A stretch of DNA of 61,897 bases from Chloroflexota bacterium. GTDB lineage: Bacteria; Chloroflexota; Limnocylindria; Limnocylindrales; CSP1-4. The DNA is taken from the NCBI GenBank assembly GCA_021786385.1, contig JAJYNJ010000062.1, positions 1 to 61,897 on the forward strand, in the 5' to 3' direction. Below are positions 8,553 through 21,116 of this stretch, piece by piece (position 1 is the stretch's first letter; the number at the start of each line of letters is the position of its first letter). The notes under the pieces were generated by a model. The model ran no database searches. It was not told the origin of the DNA and saw only the letters and a list, made by a program, of their open reading frames with translations. A program made the position numbers and the translations under genes.

Positions 8553-10676
8553 TCAGCGCTTCGTCGTGTCGACGGCTGCCGCGATCGCCGCCGGGGCGGT
8601 CGGTTCTGCACCGGCCGGCGAGACTGGCGCTGCCTCCGTCCGCAGTGCCCCGGTCGCGACCAGGATCTCGTCGAGCCGCTGCGCGTTGACGGACTCGTGC
8701 GCGATCAGCTCTTCTGCGAGCGCGTCGAGCGCCGCCCGGTGGCGCGTCAGCAGGTCACGGGCCTGTGTGCGGGCCTGTTCGAGGAGCGCCCGTATCGCCG
8801 CGTCGATGCGGGCGGCCGTCGCCTCGGCGAACTCGCGAGGTGCGGCCAGCTCGCGTCCCAGGAACGGGTGCACTTCTCCGACGCCATACGAGACGGGCCC
8901 GAGCTCGTCGCTCATACCCCAGAGCCCCACCATCCGCCGCGCCAGCTCCGTGGCCGCCTTGAGGTCGCTTTCGGCCCCGGTCGTGGGCTGCCCGAAGACG
9001 ATCTCTTCGGCGGCCCGGCCGCCCAGCATCACGGCCAGGCGCGCCTCGAGATAGGCGCGCGGGTAGTTGCGGCGGTCCTCTTCGGGTCGCTGCTCGGTGA
9101 CTCCGAGCGCGCGCCCGTGGGGCACGATCGTGACCTTCTGCACCGGGTCGGCGCCGGGCGTCAAGCGAGCGACGATCGCGTGGCCGCCCTCGTGGTAGGC
9201 CACGGTGCGCCGCTCTTCGGCGTTGGCCAGCCCCGCCTGGCGCGTGCCCAGCAGCACCTTGTCGAGCGCTTCCTCGAACTGCGCAGCCCCGACCATCTCG
9301 CGACCCTCTCGGGCGGCGAGCAGGGCCGCCTCGTTTGCGAGATTGGCCAGATCGGCACCAGAGAAGCCGGCGGTGGCCCGCGACAGGGCCACCAGATCGA
9401 CGTCCGGGGCCAGGCGCAGCCCGCGTGTGTGGATGCGCAGGATCGCCTCGCGACCCGCGCGGTCGGGGTATCCAACCGTCACCTGCCGGTCGAAGCGACC
9501 AGGGCGCAAGAGGGCCGGGTCGAGCACGTCCGGGCGGTTGGTGGCGGCGATCACGATCACGTTCGTCTTGTCGTCAAACCCGTCCATCTCGACGAGCAGC
9601 TGGTTCAGTGTCTGTTCGCGCTCGTCGTTCCCACCACCGAGCCCGGCGCCACGCTGACGACCCACCGCGTCGATCTCGTCGACGAAGACGATCGAGGGGG
9701 CGGCCGCCTTGGCCTTGTTGAACAGGTCGCGCACCCGCGACGCCCCCACGCCGACGAACATCTCGACGAACTCGGAGGCCGAGATGCTGAAGAAGGGGAC
9801 GTGGGCCTCGCCGGCCACCGCGCGAGCCAGCAGCGTCTTGCCAGTTCCAGGCGGTCCGATCAGCAAGACCCCACGCGGCAGGCGGGCACCCAACCGCCGA
9901 TAGCGGTCGGGCTCCTTCAGGAAGTCGACCACCTCCATCAGCTCGAGCTTCGCCTCGTCCTCCCCGGCCACGTCGGCGAAGGTGACAGTGGGCCGCTCCG
10001 CATCGTAGAGACGGGCCCGGGAGCCGCCGAAGCCGAAGAGGCCCTGCTGGCTGCGCTGGGCCTGGCGGCCCATGTAGACGAAGAAGCCGACCAGGAGCAG
10101 CATCGGCAGCACGCTGACGAGCAAGCTCAGCAGGAAGGAGCCGCCGCTCGTCGTGTCCTTGGCCGTGATCGTGACGTTGTGCGCCTCCAGGAGCGGCAGC
10201 AGCGCTGGATCGCCGGTGGGCGGCATCACGCTCGTGAAGGCCTGATAGCTGGTTGGGCCCTGCGTGGTGCCCGGCAGGGCGAGGCCGCCGGGCGTCGCCG
10301 ACGGCGTCCCGCCCGCGGCCGCCGTCGCCTGCGGGGCCGCAGATGCGCCCGCTGTGCCCGCGGGCGGCCAGACGATCGGGTGGCGGAAGGTGCCCTGCAG
10401 GGTCTGCCCGTTGAACTGCACCTGTGCGATGTTGTCGTGCTGCGCCTGGTCCAGGAACGCGGAGTACGGCAGATCGACGGTCGGTGTTGCGGCGGGCAAC
10501 AGCGTGGCGAGGTTCCACAGGACCAGGAGGCCGAAGATCAGCCACCAGACCCAGCCCGGCAACCTCGGCTTGAGGCGCTGCTGCGCTCGCTGGCCGGGCT
10601 GGCCGGGCCGAGCGGGCTGGCCGGGCGGGGCCGATTTCACGGGCCCTCCAGCCGGGGGTGAGGGCCAGCCGCTCAT
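8553..10676 (-). CDS. ftsH: ATP-dependent zinc metalloprotease FtsH
   Basis: FtsH is a membrane-anchored AAA+ protease that degrades misassembled membrane proteins and regulators. The 707-residue protein has a Pro/Gly/Gln-rich N-terminus, a membrane segment near 41-62, an extracytoplasmic domain, a second membrane segment near 183-202, the AAA module ([21 protein letters not shown]), and the zinc site HEGGH near 494. The extracytoplasmic domain carries an Ala/Pro/Thr-rich insert (about residues 104-150) absent from typical FtsH. ATG 10676 was chosen because GGAGG lies 7-8 nt upstream. The C-terminus after the protease domain is short and Ala/Pro-rich. It is divergent from mreB. Confidence 0.95.
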
Positions 10677-10734
10677 CGCCCGCCTCCGTTCGCGAAACGC
10701 GCCGCCGCGGGCGGCACACGACCCCCTGCACCCC

Positions 10735-10740
10735 ACTGTA
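10735..10740 (-). promoter_or_regulatory. Putative -10 element (TACAGT) of ftsH
   Basis: Read on the minus strand, TACAGT lies 58 nt before the ftsH ATG, leaving a short leader that carries the Shine-Dalgarno. Confidence 0.4.
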
Positions 10741-10860
10741 CGCTCGCGCGAGCCAGACTCTGGACGCCGCTCATGGGACCGTGCTCATCTGCGTTCACTG
10801 CGCCAATCGTACGGCAGGCGCCCACGGACGGCCGATCCGCAAGATGCTCGACCCGCGGCG

Positions 10861-10915
10861 CCCGTGAGCCCGCGCCCGTGAGCCCGCGCCCGTGAGCCCG
10901 CGCCCGTGGGCGCCG
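10861..10915. repeat. 15-bp tandem repeat, four copies
   Basis: The unit CCCGTGAGCCCGCGC starts at 10861, 10876, 10891 and 10906. It lies between the divergent ftsH and mreB promoters. Confidence 0.85.
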
Positions 10916-10974
10916 CCCCGCGTCCGTCAACTGCGCGGCCGTGAGCGGTGCGCCCGTGCGCTGGGCATGGCGGG

Positions 10975-10980
10975 TATACT
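10975..10980 (+). promoter_or_regulatory. Putative -10 element (TATACT) of mreB
   Basis: TATACT is close to the consensus TATAAT and lies 93 nt before the mreB ATG. Confidence 0.45.
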
Positions 10981-11073
10981 GCGCTGGCCGCCACGCGCCC
11001 CGGGCCGACGGTACGTACGTGCCCGACCGCTGGCCGAGCACCCCGACAGCAGCAGGCAGGTTCCGCCACGAGT

Positions 11074-12126
11074 ATGCTCGACGCCTTCTTCGGCCTCTTC
11101 TCTCGCGACATCGGGATCGATCTCGGCACGGCGAACACCCTCGTCCACGTCCGAGATCGCGGGATCGTGATCAGCGAGCCGAGCGTGGTCGCGCTCGACA
11201 CCAAGACGCACAAGGTGCTGGCGATCGGGGCCGAGGCGAAGCGGATGGTGGGGCGCACACCGGCCAACATCATCGCGGTCCGGCCGCTCCGCGACGGCGT
11301 CATCAGCGACTTCGACGTCACCGAGCAGATGATCAAGCACTTTGTGAACAAGGTGCACGATCGGGTCGGGCTGATCCCGCGCCCGCGCATGCTGCTCGGC
11401 GTCCCCTCCGGCGTGACCGAAGTCGAGAAGCGCGCGGTGCGCGACGCGGCGATGAACGCGGGGGCCCGCTGGGCGCGCCTGATCGAGGAGCCGATGGCGG
11501 CGGCGATCGGCGCCGGCCTGCCCATTGGCGAACCCTCGGGCAGCATGATCGTCGATATCGGTGGCGGCACCACCGAGGTCGCGGTGATCAGCCTCGGGGG
11601 GATCGTGATCAGCCGCAGCATCCGCATCGGCGGCGACGAGATGGACATGGACATCGTCGGGTTCGGGCGCCGCGAGTACAACCTGCTGGTGGGCGAACGT
11701 ACCGCGGAGGACATCAAGATCGCCCTCGGCTCGGCGTATCAGGGCGACTGGGACGAGCTGCGGGTGACGCTGCGCGGCCGCGACCTGCTGACAGGCCTGC
11801 CCCGCGCTGTCGAGGTCACCGCCGAGCAGATCCGCGAGGCGATCGAACCGTCCGTCCAGCAGATCGTCGACATCGTCAAGGACACCATCGAAGAGACGCC
11901 GCCCGAGCTGGTGGCGGACATCATGGACCAGGGCGTCGTGCTGGCCGGCGGCGGGGCGCTGTTGCAGGGGCTCGACCGGCGCATCGCCGAGGCGACACAG
12001 ATGCCCGTCCACGTCGCCGACGATCCCCTCACCTGCGTCGCACGGGGTACCGGCAAGGCGCTGGAGGAGCTCGACACCATGGAGCGTTCGCTCGTCGCGG
12101 AAACCTACTCGCGCCCGCCTCGCTGA
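11074..12126 (+). CDS. mreB: Rod-shape determining protein MreB
   Basis: MreB is a bacterial actin that polymerises under the membrane and guides wall synthesis. The 350-residue length is normal. The phosphate-1 motif IGIDLGTANT lies near residue 12, the phosphate-2 motif VDIGGGTTE near 160, and the adenosine motif VLAGGGALLQG near 288. The ATG gives MLDAFFGLFSRDIGIDLG, the usual MreB start with a short amphipathic N-terminus. mreC follows after 12 nt, the standard order. mreD, the class B PBP and rodA, which often follow, are not in this window. Confidence 0.95.
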   Translation: MLDAFFGLFSRDIGIDLGTANTLVHVRDRGIVISEPSVVALDTKTHKVLAIGAEAKRMVGRTPANIIAVRPLRDGVISDFDVTEQMIKHFVNKVHDRVGLIPRPRMLLGVPSGVTEVEKRAVRDAAMNAGARWARLIEEPMAAAIGAGLPIGEPSGSMIVDIGGGTTEVAVISLGGIVISRSIRIGGDEMDMDIVGFGRREYNLLVGERTAEDIKIALGSAYQGDWDELRVTLRGRDLLTGLPRAVEVTAEQIREAIEPSVQQIVDIVKDTIEETPPELVADIMDQGVVLAGGGALLQGLDRRIAEATQMPVHVADDPLTCVARGTGKALEELDTMERSLVAETYSRPPR

Positions 12127-12138
12127 CGCGGTCTCGCC

Positions 12139-13101
12139 ATGTTCGCGACGCGCGCCAGCCGCCGGCGCGGGCTGCTCTACGCGATCCTGATGGCCGCGGG
12201 GCTCCTCCTCCTCGCGCTCAGCAGCACGGCCCCTATGCGCGACCTCCAGGTGCTGGTGGGCGACCTGCTCGCGCCGGCCGAAGGCGTGCTCTCCGGGGCC
12301 ACGCGCACCGTGGGCTCGCTCGTGGGCGCGCTGAGCGAGATCGACCATCTGCGGGCGCAGAACCGCGCGCTCGAGCAACAGAACCAGCAGCTCGAGGTCG
12401 AGAACCGCCAGCTGCAGGAGATCAAGATCCAGAACGATCAGCTGAGCCGTCTGCTCGGGGTCCAAGGGTCGCTCGGTTACCACACGGTGGCTGCCACGGT
12501 CGTCAGCCGTGAGGTCTCGCAATACACGCGGGTGATCACGATCGACGTCGGCACCGACCGCGGGATCGCCCTCAACGACGTGGTCGTCGCCGATGGCGGT
12601 GCCCTGGTGGGTTCCGTGTGGGAAGTCGGGACCGACTTCAGCCGCATCCTGCTGATCAGCGACACACGCTCGACAGTCATTGGGCTGATCGAGTCGAGCC
12701 GGGCGACGGGTGAGGTGATCGGGCAACTCGGTGGGGCGCTCGTGATGCAGGAGATCCCGGCCACCGAGCGGGTGAACCTGAACGACACCGTGGTGACGGC
12801 CGGGATCGATCTCGGCAACGGCATTCGATCCCCGTTCCCCAAGGGGCTCCTGATCGGCAGCATCGTCGACGTGCAGCGCGACCCGAACGCGGTGGTCCAG
12901 ACGGCGTTCATCAACCCGGCCGCGGACCTCGACAAGCTCGAGTACGTGCTGGTCATCACCGACTACCACGGGGGGCTGCCGCCGGTCCCGGCGGCGTCGA
13001 ACGCGCCGGGCGCTGCCGGCTCTTCCGGAACCGCGGCGTCGCCCGCGCCGTCGGTGACGGCGCTACCGCTCCCGGCGCCCTCGCTCGCGCCGGCCCCGTA
13101 G
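12139..13101 (+). CDS. mreC: Rod-shape determining protein MreC
   Basis: MreC is a bitopic membrane protein that links MreB to the wall-synthesis machinery. The 320 residues comprise a membrane segment near 13-30, a coiled coil near 72-105 (LRAQNRALEQQNQQLEVENR), two beta-barrel-like domains and a Pro/Ala-rich tail after about residue 275. The length and order match the family. It follows mreB by 12 nt and is convergent with the UDP-glucose dehydrogenase-like gene only 13 nt after its stop, so mreD is not in its usual place. Confidence 0.93.
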   Translation: MFATRASRRRGLLYAILMAAGLLLLALSSTAPMRDLQVLVGDLLAPAEGVLSGATRTVGSLVGALSEIDHLRAQNRALEQQNQQLEVENRQLQEIKIQNDQLSRLLGVQGSLGYHTVAATVVSREVSQYTRVITIDVGTDRGIALNDVVVADGGALVGSVWEVGTDFSRILLISDTRSTVIGLIESSRATGEVIGQLGGALVMQEIPATERVNLNDTVVTAGIDLGNGIRSPFPKGLLIGSIVDVQRDPNAVVQTAFINPAADLDKLEYVLVITDYHGGLPPVPAASNAPGAAGSSGTAASPAPSVTALPLPAPSLAPAP

Positions 13102-13114
13102 CCGGCAGCGTCCG

Positions 13115-14419
13115 TCAGACCCGGCGGCCCAGCACCTCGAGGCGCAGGCCGGCCGCCCGAACCGCCGCCACCTCGACGACATTGCGCGTGTCGTAGACGA
13201 GGTCACCCGCCAGCACCGCGCGTATCTGCGTCCAGTCGAGCGTCCGAAACGCGGGCCACTCGGTCGCGACCAGCACCGCATCTGCGTCACGTGCGGCAGT
13301 CACCGGATCGGGCGCCACCTCGAGCAGCGGATCGGCCCGACACGCTGTCTCCAGCGCGCGCGGGTCGTACCCGACCACGGTGGCCCCGCCGGCGCGCAGT
13401 TCTCGCGCCAGCGCGAGGGCCGGTGACTCGCGCACATCATCGGTCCCCGCCTTGAACGCGAGCCCGAGCAGGGCGATGCGTGCGCCGTTGAGCGGGCGAC
13501 CCAGCAGCGTTCCCAGGCGTGCCGCGACCGCCTGCTGGTGGGAGATGTTCGATCGACTCACCGCATCGATGAGCGGGGTGGGCACGCCGACACGCGCACT
13601 CAGCAGGGGCAAGGCGAGCGCCTGCTCGGGCAGGCAGGAGCCGCCGACTCCGGGGCCCGCGCTGAGGAAGGCGCTCCCGATCCGATCGTCCATCCCGACG
13701 CCCGCGGTGACGAGGTCGACGTCGGCGCCGACCGCGTCGCAGAGGCGCGCCAGCTCGTTGGCGAACGCGATCTTGGCCGCGAGGAAGACGTTGGAGGCGA
13801 GCTTGATCAGCGCGACCGAGCGCGCGTCGGCCACGAGCGTGGGGGCGTTGAGCGGCGCGTACAGGTCGGCCACCGCCTCCGCGGCAGCGCGGTCTTCCGG
13901 ACGGAGCCATCCGGTGACCACCCGGCTGGGCACGTCGAAGTCGCGTAGCCCGGCGCCCTCGCGCATGAACTCCGGGTTGGTCACCACGGCCGCGCACGGC
14001 CCCTCTGCGCGCTGCGCGTCGACGAGGCGAGCCAGTCGATCCGGGCCTTCCACCGGGAGCGTCGAACGCACCACGATCACGTGGTCGGGGGGCGCTGTCG
14101 CGAGGAGGGTCGCGACGGCCTCCTCGACCTGGCGGGTGGAGAGGGGTCCCTCCGGCCCCGTGGGCGTGCCGACGCAGACGATGGAGTAGGCCGTTCCGGC
14201 CGGCGGGGTGCCAGCGGTGGTGACGTCGAGCCGTCCCGCGGCCATCTCGGCGCGGAGTGCCTCCTCGAGCCCGGGCTCGAAGATGGGGGAGCGACCCTCG
14301 GCGAGCAGGGCGATCCGCGCGCGGTCGATGTCCGAGACGGTGACGTGGTGCCCGAGGCGGGCGAAGCCGACGGCCGTGACCAGGCCCACGGGGCCCGCGC
14401 CGACCAGAAAGAGCTGCAC
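13115..14419 (-). CDS. UDP-glucose/GDP-mannose dehydrogenase family protein
   Basis: This 434-residue protein has the family's three parts: NAD-binding Rossmann fold (FLVGAGPVGLVTA), central dimerisation helix, and C-terminal UDP-sugar domain (LGLAFKAGTDDVRESP). UDP-glucose 6-dehydrogenases make UDP-glucuronate for surface glycans. The catalytic cysteine lies in GVGGSCLPEQ. The usual motif is GGSC-x-PKD, so the lysine and aspartate are replaced by E and Q, which is odd. GTG 14419 was chosen because of the AGGAG 8-10 nt upstream. It lies 17 nt after the SDR stop and probably shares its transcript. Confidence 0.85.
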   Translation of the reverse strand: MQLFLVGAGPVGLVTAVGFARLGHHVTVSDIDRARIALLAEGRSPIFEPGLEEALRAEMAAGRLDVTTAGTPPAGTAYSIVCVGTPTGPEGPLSTRQVEEAVATLLATAPPDHVIVVRSTLPVEGPDRLARLVDAQRAEGPCAAVVTNPEFMREGAGLRDFDVPSRVVTGWLRPEDRAAAEAVADLYAPLNAPTLVADARSVALIKLASNVFLAAKIAFANELARLCDAVGADVDLVTAGVGMDDRIGSAFLSAGPGVGGSCLPEQALALPLLSARVGVPTPLIDAVSRSNISHQQAVAARLGTLLGRPLNGARIALLGLAFKAGTDDVRESPALALARELRAGGATVVGYDPRALETACRADPLLEVAPDPVTAARDADAVLVATEWPAFRTLDWTQIRAVLAGDLVYDTRNVVEVAAVRAAGLRLEVLGRRV

Positions 14420-14436: not shown

Positions 14437-15336
14437 CTACAGCATCGTGCGGAGCTGCCCGCCGTCGATGGGGATCAGTGTGCCGGTCACGTAGCTCGCG
14501 CGGGCTGAAGCGAGGAATGCCACGACCGCGCCCAGCTCGGCCGGCTCCCCGTAACGGCCCAGCGGGATGGCGCGCACCTGCTCGGCCCGCACCTCTTCCT
14601 CGGTCCGCCCGCTGCGCGCCGCCGTGTCCGCGTCGAGCTGCCGGATCCGCTCGGTGTTGAGCCGGCCGGGGGCCACGGCGTTGACGAGGATGCCGTCCGG
14701 GGCGAGCTCGATCGAGAGCGTCTTCATCAGCCCGTGCACGGCCGACCGGAGCGAGTTGCTCGTGATGAGGTTCGGTACGGGCTGTTTCACGCTGCCGCTC
14801 TCGATGAACACGATGCGCCCGCCGCCGGCGTGTCGGACCCGCTCATCGCGCAAGTGGGGCAGCGCGGCGCGGACGAGGCGCACGGCGGAGAGGAAGGTCA
14901 GGTCGACCGAGGCGCGCCATTGCTCCTCGGTGATCGATTCGAACGGACCAGGGGGCGGCCCGCCGGCGTTCACCACGAGCACGTCGAGCCGCCCGAAGCG
15001 CTCCACGGTCGCCCCGACGAGCCGTTGCGCGGTATCCGGGAGCGCGACGTCACCGGCCACCCACGCGACGCGCTCGCGCGCGGATCGCCGTCCACGACCG
15101 CCGGCCAGCCAGATGTCGGCGTCGTCGGCGGTCACGGGGTCCAGCCCGCGGCCGCCCGCAGGGGTCCGCGCGACGTCCGCACCGAGCTCGTCGGCCGCCT
15201 GCCGGAGCGGCACCGGGTCGCGCGCCGCGAGCATCACCGCCGCCCCTTCCCGCAGCAGCTCGAGCGCCGCGGCTCGCCCTAGGCCGCGGCTGGCTCCGAG
15301 CACCAACGCGACCCGCCCATCCAGCCCGAGTTCCAT
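14437..15336 (-). CDS. SDR-family oxidoreductase with atypical active site
   Basis: The 299-residue protein is a short-chain dehydrogenase/reductase: cofactor motif GASRGLGRAAA near residue 14, NAGGPPPGPF in place of NAG, and a C-terminal PIDGG. The usual catalytic Tyr-x3-Lys is replaced; the aligned stretch reads SNSLRSAVHGL, giving Ser and Arg. A family of FabG-like SDRs carries this SN-x2-R pattern after a VKQP motif, which is also present here (SVKQPVPNL). There is a 35-residue insertion near residues 55-90. The ATG has GGAGGAG upstream. UGD follows in the same direction. The substrate is unknown. Confidence 0.8.
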   Translation of the reverse strand: MELGLDGRVALVLGASRGLGRAAALELLREGAAVMLAARDPVPLRQAADELGADVARTPAGGRGLDPVTADDADIWLAGGRGRRSARERVAWVAGDVALPDTAQRLVGATVERFGRLDVLVVNAGGPPPGPFESITEEQWRASVDLTFLSAVRLVRAALPHLRDERVRHAGGGRIVFIESGSVKQPVPNLITSNSLRSAVHGLMKTLSIELAPDGILVNAVAPGRLNTERIRQLDADTAARSGRTEEEVRAEQVRAIPLGRYGEPAELGAVVAFLASARASYVTGTLIPIDGGQLRTML

Positions 15337-15546
15337 GGCCACTCCTCCGTCTGTGAGCTGGCGTCCATCCTGCCACGAAGGCGACGCGGGGTCGCGGTGG
15401 TGGTGCGGCATGCGCCCGATCGGGCCATGCCGGACGGGACCATCGCGCGATGGTCCGACGGTGTTCGGCCGCGCACTCTGGGCGGACCGCCGCGCGGAGA
15501 TCCGGCCGCGACGGCGGAGCACCGCGTACACGCCAGGAGTGCCGTC

Positions 15547-17400
15547 ATGCACCACCGCCCGCTCGCCATCCTCGCCACGTCGCTCGTCGTCGCGCTCTTC
15601 GGCGCCTTGCTTGGTCCCGCAGGGATGCCGCTCGGCGTGGGAATGGTCCGCGCCGCCGGCGTGCAGCCCCCGAGGGTCGTGGTGGTCGTCGGGCCAACCC
15701 ATGGCCTGACGACGAGCAACCTGCAGTGGGGCGAGGCGATCGCGGAGCGGGCCGCCGCCCAGGGCGCCCAGGTCGTTCGCGTCTTCCATCCGCACGCGAC
15801 CTGGGCCGCGGTGTCGGCCGCGGCCGCGGGGGCGAATGTGCTGGTCTATCTCGGCCACGGCAACGGGTACCCCTCGCCGTATACGAGCACGCTGATGCCC
15901 GACCGACAGGACGGCATGGGGCTCGACCCGGTCGATGGAGCCGCCGACGACCAGGTGCAGTACTACGGCGAGCAGTACATGGCGACGCTCCATCTGGCGC
16001 CGAACGCGCTCGTGGTGCTCAACCATCTCTGCTACGCGAGCGGTAACAGCGAGCCCGGTCAACCCGAGCCGACAGCGGGGGTCGCCGTCGAACGTGTCGA
16101 CAACTTCGCCGCCGGGTTCCTCGCCGGCGGTGCCGGCGCTGTACTCGCCCTGGGGCTCCAGGACGCGGGTGACATCGTCGCCGCGCTGTTCGGGCCACCG
16201 CAGACGCTCGACCAGCTCTTCATGGCAAGCGGCGGCATCGGGGCCGCCCCGCTGACGACCGCGTCGACCCGCACGCCCGGAGCGTGGCTGCACCTGGACC
16301 CAGATTCCGCGACCGCCGGCTTCTACCGGTCGCTGGCCGGGAACCTCGACCTCCTCACGTCCCAGGTGCTGAGCGGGGCGGGCGGAGCGACTGCCCTGCC
16401 GCCGGCCGGCCTCTCTCCTGCCCCTGCGTCGACACCGGCCGTTCCGCCGACGCCGGCCGTTCCGCAGTCGCCAGCATCGGACCAGCCGCCCGTCTTGTCC
16501 GCGTTCAGCGCTCCGTCCGCCTTCACGCCCAACGGTGACGGCATCTCGGACACGCTGACCGCCTCCTACCAGATCTCTGCCCCGGGCACGCTCGAGATCT
16601 CGATCATCGCCGCGTCGGGGGCGGTGGTGCGCCACCTGGTAGTGGCGGCCACGTCCGACGCGGGCCAGGCCACCTGGGATGGCCGGGGCGACGATGGGCT
16701 CGTCGTCCCCGACGGGACGTATGCGCTGGTCGCGACGCCGCTGAGTGCGATCGGGCTGCCGGGGGCGGCCCTCACGATCCACACGCGGGTGCTCACCGCC
16801 ATCAGGGCGCCGCGCGCCACGCCTGCAGTCTTCTACCCGCTGGACCGCGGCGGCGGCTCCGACCTGACGACGCTCTCGGTCACGCTCACGCAGGCCGCCA
16901 CGGTCAGCTGGACCGTGACAGACGCATCCGGACGGGTGGTGCGGACGCTCTGGGAGCGCCGCGCGGTGCCGGCCGGCGCGTGGGTCACCTCCTGGGATGG
17001 CCGAGGCGCCGCGGGGGGCGGGAAGACCCTCGCGCCCTTGCCTGTCGGACGGTACCTCTCGGCCATCGCGGCGACGACGGCGGCCGGTACGGTCGTCATG
17101 CGCAGCGTGATCTGGCTGATGCCGTTCCGCCTGACGCTCTCGACGGCGACGGCCGCGGCGAGGCAGCTCGTGAGCGTCGCGATCGTGAGCGCCGAACCGC
17201 TGCGGGCGGCGCCGCGGTTGCTCGTGCTGCAGCCCGGGCTGCCAGCGTACGCGGTGACGGCAGCGCCGATCGGCGGGTTCGCGTATCGCGCGGTCTTCCG
17301 TCTGCGGGCTGGCCTGCCCGGCACGGTCCAGCTCCGGGCGATCGGGACGGATCGGGCCGGCAACCTCCTGTCGATGGCCGCGTCTCTGGCGCTGCGGTAG
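15547..17400 (+). CDS. Secreted caspase-fold-like protein with FlgD-type Ig domains
   Basis: The 617-residue protein starts with a signal peptide (residues 1-38). Residues 40-260 look like a clan CD (gingipain/caspase) fold: a histidine in VYLGHGNG and a cysteine in VVLNHLCYASG, each after a hydrophobic strand. A Pro/Ala/Thr linker (about 280-320) leads to FlgD-type Ig domains, marked by FTPNGDGISD, ATWDGRGDDG and DGTYAL near 325-400, and a second such unit with SWDGRGAAGG near 480. The dyad call is inference; I see no other peptidase landmark. The ATG has CCAGGAG upstream. It would be exported and surface-bound or secreted, possibly as a protease. Confidence 0.65.
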   Translation: MHHRPLAILATSLVVALFGALLGPAGMPLGVGMVRAAGVQPPRVVVVVGPTHGLTTSNLQWGEAIAERAAAQGAQVVRVFHPHATWAAVSAAAAGANVLVYLGHGNGYPSPYTSTLMPDRQDGMGLDPVDGAADDQVQYYGEQYMATLHLAPNALVVLNHLCYASGNSEPGQPEPTAGVAVERVDNFAAGFLAGGAGAVLALGLQDAGDIVAALFGPPQTLDQLFMASGGIGAAPLTTASTRTPGAWLHLDPDSATAGFYRSLAGNLDLLTSQVLSGAGGATALPPAGLSPAPASTPAVPPTPAVPQSPASDQPPVLSAFSAPSAFTPNGDGISDTLTASYQISAPGTLEISIIAASGAVVRHLVVAATSDAGQATWDGRGDDGLVVPDGTYALVATPLSAIGLPGAALTIHTRVLTAIRAPRATPAVFYPLDRGGGSDLTTLSVTLTQAATVSWTVTDASGRVVRTLWERRAVPAGAWVTSWDGRGAAGGGKTLAPLPVGRYLSAIAATTAAGTVVMRSVIWLMPFRLTLSTATAAARQLVSVAIVSAEPLRAAPRLLVLQPGLPAYAVTAAPIGGFAYRAVFRLRAGLPGTVQLRAIGTDRAGNLLSMAASLALR

Positions 17401-17545: not shown

Positions 17546-17552
17546 GCACGTG

Positions 17553-18452
17553 ATGGACCTGAGCGCAGCTGAGCCGCCGACGTCGTATAGGGACACGTGG
17601 GTCGTGCTGCCCACGTACAACGAGGCCGAGAACTTGCGGGGGATCGCGGCAGCGATCCTCGAGCAGTTGCCGGGGGCGACGCTCCTGGTCGTGGACGACG
17701 CCTCGCCGGATGGCACGGGCGACCTGGCCGATGCGCTGGCGGCGGCGGATCCGCGCGTCCGCGTCCTCCATCGATCCAGCAAGCAGGGGCTCGGGCGTGC
17801 CTACATCGATGGGTTCCGCGTGGCCCTCGCCGGCGGTGCCGACCGGATCGTCCAGATGGACGCGGACTGGTCGCACGATCCGGCCTGCCTGCCGGCGCTC
17901 CTCGACCCGCTGCAGCGCGGGGCGGACCTCGTGATCGGTTCCCGGTACGTGCGCGGGGGCGGTGTGACGGATTGGGGTCTCGCGCGGCGAGTCGTCTCGC
18001 GCGGCGGGTCGACTTTCGCCCGCCTGGTGCTGGGGCTCCCGGTGCACGACCTGACGGGCGGTTTCAAGGCGTGGCGCCGCGAGACGCTCGGGGCGATTCC
18101 GTGGGACGGCGTGCACGCCGGGGGCTACGTGTTCCAGATCGAGATGACGTACCTGGCCCGGCGTGTCGGGGCGCGCGTGGTCGAGATCCCGATCATCTTC
18201 CGCGATCGCCGGGTCGGCGTGAGCAAGATGTCGCGGCGGATCGTGCTCGAGGCGCTGCTGGTCGTGCTGACGCTCCGCTGGGAGGCGCTGCGCGGCGATC
18301 GCGGGGCGGCCGCGCCGGATGTGCCGGCGCGGCCTTCGGTCGCCACGACCGGCCGGCACGCGCGCACCGCCGACCCGGATACGGCTGTCGCGACCGACCG
18401 AAACGCCACACCCGCCGCCCAGCGACCGGGCGCCGAGGAGCGGCCGAGCTGA
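17553..18452 (+). CDS. Polyprenyl-phosphate mannosyltransferase-like GT2
   Basis: The 299-residue protein belongs to the GT2 group of dolichyl/polyprenyl-phosphate mannose synthases, which load mannose from GDP-mannose onto a lipid carrier at the membrane. The GT-A signatures are present: VVLPTYNEAENL near residue 15, VVDDASPDGTG near 45, and QMDADWSHDP near 100. HDLTGGFKAWRR and RDRRVGVSKMS are typical of the DPM1 class. There is no C-terminal membrane domain; the last 50 residues are Thr/Ala/Arg-rich. The ATG at 17553 follows the -10 hexamer directly. Its stop overlaps a GT4 gene as TGATG. Confidence 0.88.
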   Translation: MDLSAAEPPTSYRDTWVVLPTYNEAENLRGIAAAILEQLPGATLLVVDDASPDGTGDLADALAAADPRVRVLHRSSKQGLGRAYIDGFRVALAGGADRIVQMDADWSHDPACLPALLDPLQRGADLVIGSRYVRGGGVTDWGLARRVVSRGGSTFARLVLGLPVHDLTGGFKAWRRETLGAIPWDGVHAGGYVFQIEMTYLARRVGARVVEIPIIFRDRRVGVSKMSRRIVLEALLVVLTLRWEALRGDRGAAAPDVPARPSVATTGRHARTADPDTAVATDRNATPAAQRPGAEERPS

Positions 18453-19774
18453 TGCGCGAACTCGTCGGCGTGCCGCCGCGCTCGGAGCTGGCTCCCGCCC
18501 CCGCGCGGATCGTGATCGACCTGCGCCCGCTGCAGGAGCCGGAGCGGACGCCGATCACCGCCGGCTACCTGCGGCGATTGCTCGCCGCGTTTGCGGCCGA
18601 CCCGCTGGCGGGCGAGTCGTTCGTGCCGATCCTCCGGCTGCTGCGCCCCGATCCGACGCGCGAGCTCGAAGCGCAAGGGCTCGCCGTGGCGGGCCGCCGC
18701 CGGGTGCTGCCCACGGCGCGGTTCCTGCGCTCCGCTGGCCTGACGGTCGACGCGTTTCAGCTGCGCGGCGCCGAAATCGGCGCTGCGCGGGGGTTCGAGG
18801 CGTACGGCGCACGCGGAGCCGTCTACCACACGGCCGGCGGCGCGGTGCCGCTCGGTTCCGCGCTCCCGGTGGTCGCGACGGTGCTCGACCTGGCGCCCTG
18901 GGAGCTTCCTGCGATCTACGCCGCGAGCCCCGCCGCGCGGTTCGGCCACCGCCTCCGCGCGCGGATCCTGCGCGACGCCACGAGGCTCATCGTTTGTTCG
19001 GAGGCTAGCGCCGACGCGGCGCGCCGCCTCCTGCACGTTCGGCCTGAGCGGATCGCGGTCGTGCGGCTGGCCGCCGACGAGGCGTTCGTGCCGGACGCCG
19101 GGCGGCCCGAACGGGTCGCCGCGCTCCGGGCGCGGCTGGGCCTGCCGCAGCGATACTTCGCCTTCTCCGGCCGCTACGACGCCCGAAAGGACCTGGGCAC
19201 GCTCTTCCACGCACTCGCGGCCCTGCGCCAGGAGCAACCGGCCCCCTCGACGCGACACCGTCGCACGACGGGCTCCGCGGGAAGCGACACGGCGGCCGAG
19301 GCGGTCCCCTGGCCCCCAGTCGTCGTGCTGGCGGGCGCCCAGGGCGCCGACGAGAGCGATGCGCCAGCACTGGGACGCGCCGCGTCACGCCACGGGGTGC
19401 AGGACCTCGTCGTGCTGGCGCCGCAGCTCGACGCGCTCGATCTGGCGACGCTCGAGGCGGGCGCGGCGGCGGTGGTCTTCCCGGCGATCAGCGAAGGGAC
19501 GGGACTCGCCGTCCTGGAGGCGCTCGCGGTCGGTGTCCCGGTCGTCGCGTCGCGAGTGGGGCCACTGCCGGAGTTGGTGGGTGCGGCGGGGATCATCGTC
19601 GAGCCGAGAGACCCCGCGCGCCTCGCGGCGGCGCTGCGGGCGGGGTGGTCCGGGCACATCCACGACCAGCTGCGCCGCGCCGCCCGCCAGCGCGCGCTCG
19701 CCGGGCGGCGCACGTGGGCCGATGTGGCCCGCGAGACGCGCGCGGTCTACGCGGCGGCGCTCGGGCCGGAGTGA
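18452..19774 (+). CDS. GT4 glycosyltransferase
   Basis: The 440-residue protein has the GT-B layout of GT4 enzymes. The N-terminal half carries ATVLDLAPWELP and IVCSEASADAARR; the C-terminal half has the acceptor/donor region FSGRYDARKDLGTL and the nucleotide-sugar motif EGTGLAVLEALAVGVPVVAS with GIIVEPRDP after it. The start overlaps the stop of the DPM-like gene, so the two are co-translated and probably act in one glycan route. An Arg/Thr-rich insert lies near residue 265. Donor and acceptor are unknown. It is convergent with the DUF3048 gene. Confidence 0.85.
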   Translation: MRELVGVPPRSELAPAPARIVIDLRPLQEPERTPITAGYLRRLLAAFAADPLAGESFVPILRLLRPDPTRELEAQGLAVAGRRRVLPTARFLRSAGLTVDAFQLRGAEIGAARGFEAYGARGAVYHTAGGAVPLGSALPVVATVLDLAPWELPAIYAASPAARFGHRLRARILRDATRLIVCSEASADAARRLLHVRPERIAVVRLAADEAFVPDAGRPERVAALRARLGLPQRYFAFSGRYDARKDLGTLFHALAALRQEQPAPSTRHRRTTGSAGSDTAAEAVPWPPVVVLAGAQGADESDAPALGRAASRHGVQDLVVLAPQLDALDLATLEAGAAAVVFPAISEGTGLAVLEALAVGVPVVASRVGPLPELVGAAGIIVEPRDPARLAAALRAGWSGHIHDQLRRAARQRALAGRRTWADVARETRAVYAAALGPE

Positions 19775-19829: not shown

Positions 19830-21116
19830 TCAGTCCGGCGGCGCGCCGAAGCGCGACGTCGGAGCCGCGCTCGCCGGTGGCCCGAGCGTGACCGCCGTCC
19901 CCTCCGGCACCACTTGGATCGCGACCTGGCCGCGCACCAAGGTGGCCGGCGCGCCTGCGCCCGGCCCGTCCGCCACCGTCAGCAACAGCGGCGCCGCATC
20001 CGACGCCTTGCTCCACTGCGCGTCGATCACCGCCCCGTCCCGCAGCACCAGCGCCCGGCCGCGGCCGATGTAGCCGACCTCGAGGCGGCCCTTCTCCTCG
20101 TTCGTCGCCTGGCCAGGCGCGTTCGCGAGCGGGCCCACCGCGACGAAGAGCACCAGCACGTCGTACGGGGCGACCCGTGTGCCCGTCCCGGCGTCGACCT
20201 CCGGCGACCCGTCGACCGAGCGCAGGTACCGGTCGCTCGCGCGGTCGTAGGTGTACGAGATCACGCCGGCCGGGTATGGCACGACCAGCGAGCCGCCGGT
20301 CGGGCGTGCGGCCAGCGGTGCGGGATCGACGAACGACCACGCCGCCGGCGGGGCAGCGGGGGTGCCGAGCCGGGCGGCGAGCGCGTCGAGCTGGCGGGTG
20401 CTCGAGTAGACGTTGTGCGGGGCGATGCGCGTCGCGATGCGCGGCATGTACGCCGCCCAGGTGAACTCGTCGGCGTTCCAGATCAGCCGCCCGTCCATGT
20501 CCTGCAACGCGGCCAGCGCGTTCGGTGCGCCGCCCACGTGCGCGTACAGCGGACGCCACGCGGCGGCCCAGCCCACGAAGTAGCGGCGGCTGCTGCGGAT
20601 CGGCCCGATCTCGGGAGCGGCCTGAGTCTGGTAGAGGGCCATATAGCGGGGGATTCCGCCTTCCGCCGGGGCCTGGATCAGGACGTCCGCGTCGGCCAGC
20701 CCCGACTGTGGCCGCGCGGCCGGCGCGTCGTCGATCATCACTGCGAGCACCGGTCGCGCGGCAGCAGCCGCGCTCTCGAGCATCCCGTCGGTCGGCGCCG
20801 CGACGAGCGGTACTGGGCTCCGGGAAGGCGCCGTGGACGGCGCCGCCGCACTGGCCGGGGCGACCTGGTTCGCGGGGGTGCTGCCCCCGACGGGCGCCGA
20901 GGACGCGCCAGTGATGGGCGTCGGGGCCGTCCGTATGCCCGAGCAACTGTTGAGGAGCGGGACCGCCATGAGGAGCGCGGCGAGCGCAGCCACGAGCTGG
21001 GCGCGTGCCGCCGGAGAACGCCGCAGACGCCGGGCGACGGGGGCGAGCCCACGGCCCAGTCCGGCGACCCGCAGGTGGAGACGGCGGGAAGCGAACTCCC
21101 CCGTCGGCGCGGCCAT
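19830..21116 (-). CDS. DUF3048 (YerB-like) lipoprotein
   Basis: The 428-residue protein has an Arg-rich N-terminus, a hydrophobic segment (about 40-55) and a lipobox-like LLNSC, so it is probably a lipoprotein. After a Thr/Ala/Pro-rich linker it carries the DUF3048 landmarks: LAVMIDDAPAARPQSGL, QAPAEGGIPRYMALYQ, IGPIRSSRRYFV near residues 130-185, and a later VLVLFVAV with GRALVLRDG and the final PPDW-like end replaced by GAPPD. The family is found in Firmicutes, Actinobacteria and Chloroflexota; its function is unknown. ATG 21116 follows a TAGGAT hexamer by 8 nt on the minus strand, consistent with a leaderless mRNA. Confidence 0.88.
   Translation of the reverse strand: MAAPTGEFASRRLHLRVAGLGRGLAPVARRLRRSPAARAQLVAALAALLMAVPLLNSCSGIRTAPTPITGASSAPVGGSTPANQVAPASAAAPSTAPSRSPVPLVAAPTDGMLESAAAAARPVLAVMIDDAPAARPQSGLADADVLIQAPAEGGIPRYMALYQTQAAPEIGPIRSSRRYFVGWAAAWRPLYAHVGGAPNALAALQDMDGRLIWNADEFTWAAYMPRIATRIAPHNVYSSTRQLDALAARLGTPAAPPAAWSFVDPAPLAARPTGGSLVVPYPAGVISYTYDRASDRYLRSVDGSPEVDAGTGTRVAPYDVLVLFVAVGPLANAPGQATNEEKGRLEVGYIGRGRALVLRDGAVIDAQWSKASDAAPLLLTVADGPGAGAPATLVRGQVAIQVVPEGTAVTLGPPASAAPTSRFGAPPD

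Follow-up and report, generated by a model that had tools for sequence, protein, structure and literature searches.

Bacterial proteases with a caspase fold have been discussed mainly in connection with cell death, defence and virulence. PorU is a C25-type peptidase, and the solved relatives among the CHAT proteases are intracellular effectors. The clan CD peptidases share an alpha/beta fold in which the catalytic His ends strand 3 and the Cys ends strand 4, and the gingipain RgpB has in addition an N-terminal subdomain and a large inhibitory prodomain, as described in PMC4357240. Caspase-like domains are also reported as release peptidases in polymorphic toxins (PMC3482391), and in one species, Alcanivorax borkumensis, a metacaspase gene is described as lying in an operon with mreBCD and maf-1 (PMC3501461). 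The gene described here, called X, has points in common with each of the C25, CHAT and Alcanivorax proteins. Pfam places it in none of the families C25, CHAT or C14, and it forms a clan CD family of its own.

The window, the 61,897-nucleotide stretch of DNA analysed here, corresponds to contig C88 in a genome of 2.68 Mb and 100 contigs; its lineage, CSP1-4, is placed under Ca. Limnocylindria in PMC10608941. X (positions 15547-17400, + strand) encodes a putative exported clan CD-fold peptidase of 617 amino acids within a longer open reading frame (15397-17400, +). Its ATG is preceded at a distance of 7 bases by a Shine-Dalgarno-like AGGAG (15535-15539, +), and near relatives share the start site (MHRRP, MHRRS, MNRRS). 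Compared with its relative L032 over 610 codons, X has a dN of 0.23 and a dS of 0.91, and with the resulting dN/dS of about 0.25 it behaves as a real gene. The earlier note proposed a signal peptide, and residues 1-37 (15547-15657, +), judged by eye, do resemble one for Sec export, with VRAA at its end; this start is conserved in the relatives. The same note remarked that a sorting system, often needed by exported enzymes of the C25 type, is not seen here. That remark is probably moot, since a profile search found no Omp85 in this genome (the control was found in 7 of 14 genomes), so that a Sec signal may suffice for X to reach the surface; the host cell is apparently bounded by one membrane (monoderm), and type IX sorting is apparently not needed for X. 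X was also considered as cargo of the type IX system (T9SS) and rejected, the CHU_C match to its tail being below threshold (24.1 bits, cut-off 27) and overlapping the FlgD_ig match; the T9SS C-terminal signals TIGR04131 (15.7, cut-off 35) and TIGR04183 (11.8, cut-off 23) also fall short on X.

Residues 38-285 of X are covered by no Pfam family, Pfam and NCBIfam searches with the whole protein name the FlgD tail alone, and PDB sequence searches gave no relative of the N-domain. An AlphaFold2 (AF2) model of this domain was built from an alignment, A2, of the window X and 79 relatives (79 of the 80 named loci, one being too short at its start), and it has a mean pLDDT of 94.1 and a pTM of 0.92. 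The catalytic domain, as delimited by profile match, this model and VIA-align, occupies positions 15664-16374 (+). Its predicted order is strand-helix-strand-helix-strand, His, strand, Cys, helix, strand, and the putative catalytic residues His104 (in GHGNG; 15856-15858, +) and Cys162 (in HLCYASG; 16030-16032, +) sit two and three residues past core strands 3 and 4, respectively, so that in the model the His follows strand 3 and the Cys strand 4 as in clan CD. Judged by title, the 50 VIA-align rows listed (Z 13.9-10.3) are clan CD, CHAT or separase proteins, apart from DdvA and GSU0716, whose titles carry none of these labels. The best rows are SAVED-CHAT 8tl0 (Z 13.9), DdvA (Z 13.2) and gingipain RgpB 4ief (Z 12.9; 183 residues, 4.3 Å), and further rows include legumain (Z 11.4), caspase-7 (Z 11.2), Kgp and peptide asparaginyl ligases. 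Foldseek alone is ambiguous, giving one PDB match with E ≤ 0.001 (8tl0, E 2.3e-4) with flavodoxins next, and, against a viral library, two matches below 0.001 and scattered caspases. Comparison of the predicted structure with known folds, made at the level of element order and fold matches, thus bears out the caspase/gingipain-like fold that had been proposed from the sequence, and on this model the N-domain is a clan CD fold.

The relation of X to C25 is one of likeness in the active site. Pfam Peptidase_C25 (PF01364) has no match in the host genome and touches 5 of 26 N-domains of the family below threshold (best E 0.028), and the X domain has about 240 residues against 374 positions in the C25 model. 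An RgpB-type N-terminal subdomain and large inhibitory prodomain are absent from X, whose domain starts at about residue 40, after the signal peptide. Of 151 genomes sampled, 22 have genuine C25 genes, and the family to which the window belongs (f1) is not represented among these. Pfam CHAT (PF12770) has no match in X or in its genome, its one hit among 26 members being weak (E 0.014), and C14 (PF00656) has none in the genome. When the X profile was compared by hhalign with C25, CHAT and C14 proteins from other Chloroflexota, the scores were 38.0 for C25 (probability 51.5%), 38.3 for CHAT (61.6%) and 17.8 for C14; nine controls scored 8.6-23.4 (three reversed profiles at most 17.8, six unrelated families 8.6-23.4), a range that includes the C14 score. 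These sets used 27 of 30 C25, 23 of 30 CHAT and 17 of 28 C14 loci, after exclusion of short, cut and redundant entries and of two wrong-strand readings. In the C25 alignment GHG of X pairs with GHA and LCY with SCY, which we take to be the C25 catalytic residues, so the His and Cys align there with a catalytic pair; in the CHAT alignment the Cys is off by one column. The sub-threshold HMMER hits to C25 and CHAT agree in direction with this comparison. The earlier description of X as C25-like therefore stands for the alignment of the pair and falls for membership of the family as Pfam defines it.

In an alignment of 117 rows, where certain genes appear twice because they came from two sources, eleven columns are invariant, among them G103-H104-G105, C162, G166 and R183. 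The candidate His/Cys dyad lies where it had been described and is unchanged in 117 of 117 rows, so it is not a chance motif. Eighty of the loci were fetched by peptide patterns around the dyad motifs, which biases their rows, and the rows from whole-genome searches were chosen independently of the motifs. X is in all likelihood a protease. In the tree of X homologues the main family is accompanied by a sister group, which comes from family f3, and by a more distant one from f16 and f40. A separate branch holds short paralogues (L047, L049, L066, L070, L075, L078, L079, L085, L086, L097, L107 and L109) that stop just after the catalytic domain, have no anchor tail and have no mreC nearby; they are probably a free secreted form. 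L041 and L069, whose titles name Thermomicrobiales and Anaerolinea, sit well inside the X family, and these assemblies are probably mislabelled.

The A2 profile matches 43 of 400 Chloroflexota genomes. Counted by group, with the non-matching genomes taken from those listed by kinship, the catalytic domain is present in 31 of 33 f1 and all 7 listed f3 genomes, in none of the f2 (0/5), f4 (0/9) and f5 (0/1) genomes, and in 5 of the remaining 345; X is thus nearly universal in its own family, and few other Chloroflexota have it. MreC is wider than X (37 of 41 genomes). The f2 genomes G025-G040, of about 1.1 Mb, have no X catalytic domain and keep MreC in 14 of 16, and a strict co-presence of X and MreC was rejected on this account.

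The gene order in the window is mreB (10948-12126, +; Pfam MreB_Mbl, 4e-144), mreC (12139-13101, +; Pfam MreC, 5e-33), two Pfam-assigned genes on the opposite strand, X, and then two glycosyltransferase genes, GT2 (17550-18452, +) and GT4 (18449-19774, +), also assigned by Pfam and conserved 3' of X. The opposite-strand genes encode a UDP-glucose/GDP-mannose dehydrogenase (13115-14419, -), found between mreC and X in this genus, and a short-chain dehydrogenase divergent from X (14437-15357, -). An FtsH protease gene (8553-10736, -; TIGR01241, E 9.8e-229) is also present in the window, and MreD of this genome is on contig C17, with a match below cut-off. Among the 80 named loci mreC is upstream of X in 42, always on the same strand. 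There are 66 long forms of X; 41 of them have at least 6 kb upstream, with mreC in 29 and absent in 12, and the short tailless forms with that much upstream sequence have it in 0 of 7. Of eight f3 regions, four (L214, L216, L219 and L221) have the order mreB-mreC-X-GH18, L220 has mreB-mreC-X up to the contig end, and L215, L217 and L218 lack this arrangement. The mreB-mreC-X order is thus found in both f1 and f3 and therefore predates their split, unless it was gained twice. Genes of the dTDP-rhamnose type lie upstream of X in L081 and L101. We note that a DUF3048 protein (PF11258, PF17479) with a lipoprotein-like start, encoded in the window at 19830-21116 (-), is near X in 13 of 80 loci and may belong to the same surface locus.

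The C-terminal half of X carries two FlgD-type Ig domains, found by Pfam (FlgD_ig in two stretches, E 5.6e-14) and in the AF2 model, at 16492-16791 (+) and 16801-17121 (+). The earlier note had recognized both and given their order in reverse, for the TWDGRG turn (residue 376) is in the first and SWDGRG (residue 482) in the second; beyond what it described, a third all-beta domain follows at about residues 527-617 (17125-17397, +; AF2 pLDDT 93.5). The C-terminal model has generic multi-Ig matches alone (SiiE, complement) and so is silent on what the tail binds. FlgD_ig is found in the host genome in X and in a GH18 protein, and in nothing else. The gene for the latter is on contig C13, beside an acyltransferase gene and away from the X contig; where a long form has 1 kb or more of downstream sequence (57 loci), a GH18 gene follows X on the same strand in 26. 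Among solved structures the GH18 domain is closest to YdhD (E 2.6e-16), a putative sporulation-specific glycosylase.

A Pfam scan of 64 X tails found FlgD_ig in 34, CWB2 in 7 and SH3_3 in 2, counts that exclude typing by regular expression, which missed several CWB2 tails. Repeats of an LDTR type, about 130 residues long and unnamed by Pfam, are seen in L214 (positions 8911-11214 of that locus) and in the tails of L096 and L067, and form the tail of both X and GH18 in several lineages. Both genes were complete in 26 of the 34 loci with a GH18 match, the window X being paired with the GH18 of contig C13. In these 26 pairs the X tail scores a mean of 210.7 bits against the tail of its own GH18, and random pairing gives a mean of 60.5 bits (sd 15.5, maximum 126.4 in 10,000 pairings, uncorrected for genome relatedness); the low-scoring pair L039 is interrupted by unknown bases. 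Every X tail (26/26) is closer to its own GH18 tail than to the median of the others, and the own partner ranks first in only 10 of 26 because close relatives share tails. The matched types are FlgD, CWB2 (L063 in f1, L216 in f3), LDTR (a branch of f1, L214 in f3), an SH3-like tail recognized by eye (L219, L221) and another type (L053, L093). With the same tail types in both genes across lineages, joint exchange appears to have occurred several times, and the fact that CWB2 and LDTR pairs recur in f1 as well as in f3 is a stronger argument than the uncorrected pairing test. CWB2 is a named cell-wall-binding domain that is present on other open reading frames of the CWB2-tailed genomes as well, so an anchor is the best reading of the X tail, and in the lineage of the window the FlgD module would take the place of CWB2.

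The matched tails suggest that X and GH18 work together on the cell wall. The explanation that we favour, by a little over even chances, is that X is an exported, wall-anchored cysteine peptidase that works with the GH18 protein in wall growth or surface maturation. X would cross the single membrane by Sec and be held at the surface by its C-terminal anchor module, the two FlgD-type Ig domains and the third beta domain; the GH18 protein bearing the same module would act with it, cutting glycan while X trims or processes a wall or surface protein at the same site. A pair of anchored enzymes acting on peptide bonds and on glycan, with genes at mreBC or close to it, would fit wall growth or surface maturation. 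The fold, the position and invariance of the dyad, the distribution of the family, the gene order and the matched tails are computed results; from them we infer the catalytic activity, the anchoring by the FlgD module, the GH18 partnership and the role in wall growth. Alternatively, X could be a C25-type digestive endopeptidase, secreted and kept at the surface, with which the cell feeds on protein and whose proximity to mreBC is an inherited order without function. Such an enzyme would share the C25-like alignment of the dyad, has RgpB and Kgp as precedents among the fold matches and could claim that RgpB likewise has an Ig-like domain after its catalytic domain (described in PMC4357240). We consider it unlikely, given that f1 and f3 share the mreBC order and that the X tail changes in step with a GH18 of the wall type, for which a free feeding enzyme has no need. 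A cell-death or toxin role was set aside because X looks exported and its gene lies among housekeeping surface genes; Pfam names no toxin domain in X.

The module common to X and GH18 could also be a substrate. X might be a PorU-like maturation protease or a sortase-like ligase. It would then recognize the module at the C-terminus of GH18 and of further proteins, and either cut it off or attach it to a surface sugar that the adjacent glycosyltransferase and rhamnose genes produce; in agreement with this, the locus has rml, GT2 and GT4 genes and the fold neighbours include peptide asparaginyl ligases. Two module-bearing proteins in the whole genome are few for a sorting system, however, and in the CWB2 lineages the common tail is an ordinary anchor, present on other open reading frames, so we regard this role as possible, dispreferred and very improbable. 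A bolder version, in which X founds a clan CD family of MreBC-coupled surface maturation proteases or ligases of a monoderm lineage, which would recognize the lineage's module on GH18 and fix or release it at new wall, so that a PorU-like principle was reached independently without an outer membrane and the module was swapped in step in both proteins, is a speculation to which we give slightly less credence still. Lastly, X could be a pseudo-enzyme in which the caspase fold does no more than bind wall components or serve as a scaffold for them, and no acid of an S1 pocket was identified in it; but His and Cys are invariant throughout the alignment together with their flanking Gly residues and Arg183, where drift would be expected without catalysis, and this explanation seems to us highly improbable.

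If our favoured explanation is right, an exported and anchored X beside mreBC and GH18 would give the caspase fold a role in wall growth. For each lineage the matched tails point to the anchor and to the partner, which makes pull-down and co-localisation studies straightforward to design, and X provides a function candidate for a domain that Pfam does not cover, in a class of which little has been cultured. We found no description of the X family, its link to mreC, its lineage or its tails in the open-access literature searched. It is a clan CD family outside Pfam whose location and partner are unusual.

Like the C25 gingipains RgpB and Kgp, X looks exported, has the clan CD fold with a His and Cys that align by profile, and has an Ig-like domain after its catalytic domain. 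Unlike them, it occurs in an apparently monoderm host without a Pfam C25 match and carries FlgD, CWB2 or LDTR tails in place of a T9SS tail, and it is too short at its N-terminus to include the subdomain and long prodomain that RgpB has there. The CHAT proteases (SAVED-CHAT, TPR-CHAT) supply its best fold match and a profile score of 38.3, but X differs from them in being exported, and Pfam CHAT weakly matches a single member. The GH18 domain of its partner is like the YdhD-type glycosylase of B. subtilis, its closest solved relative, although X itself is unrelated to that enzyme and the partner carries lineage-specific tails. The nearest precedent for X is the metacaspase of Alcanivorax borkumensis, also a caspase-fold gene found with mre genes; X differs from it in that it is not C14 by profile and is exported, and its mre linkage spans two families of the class.
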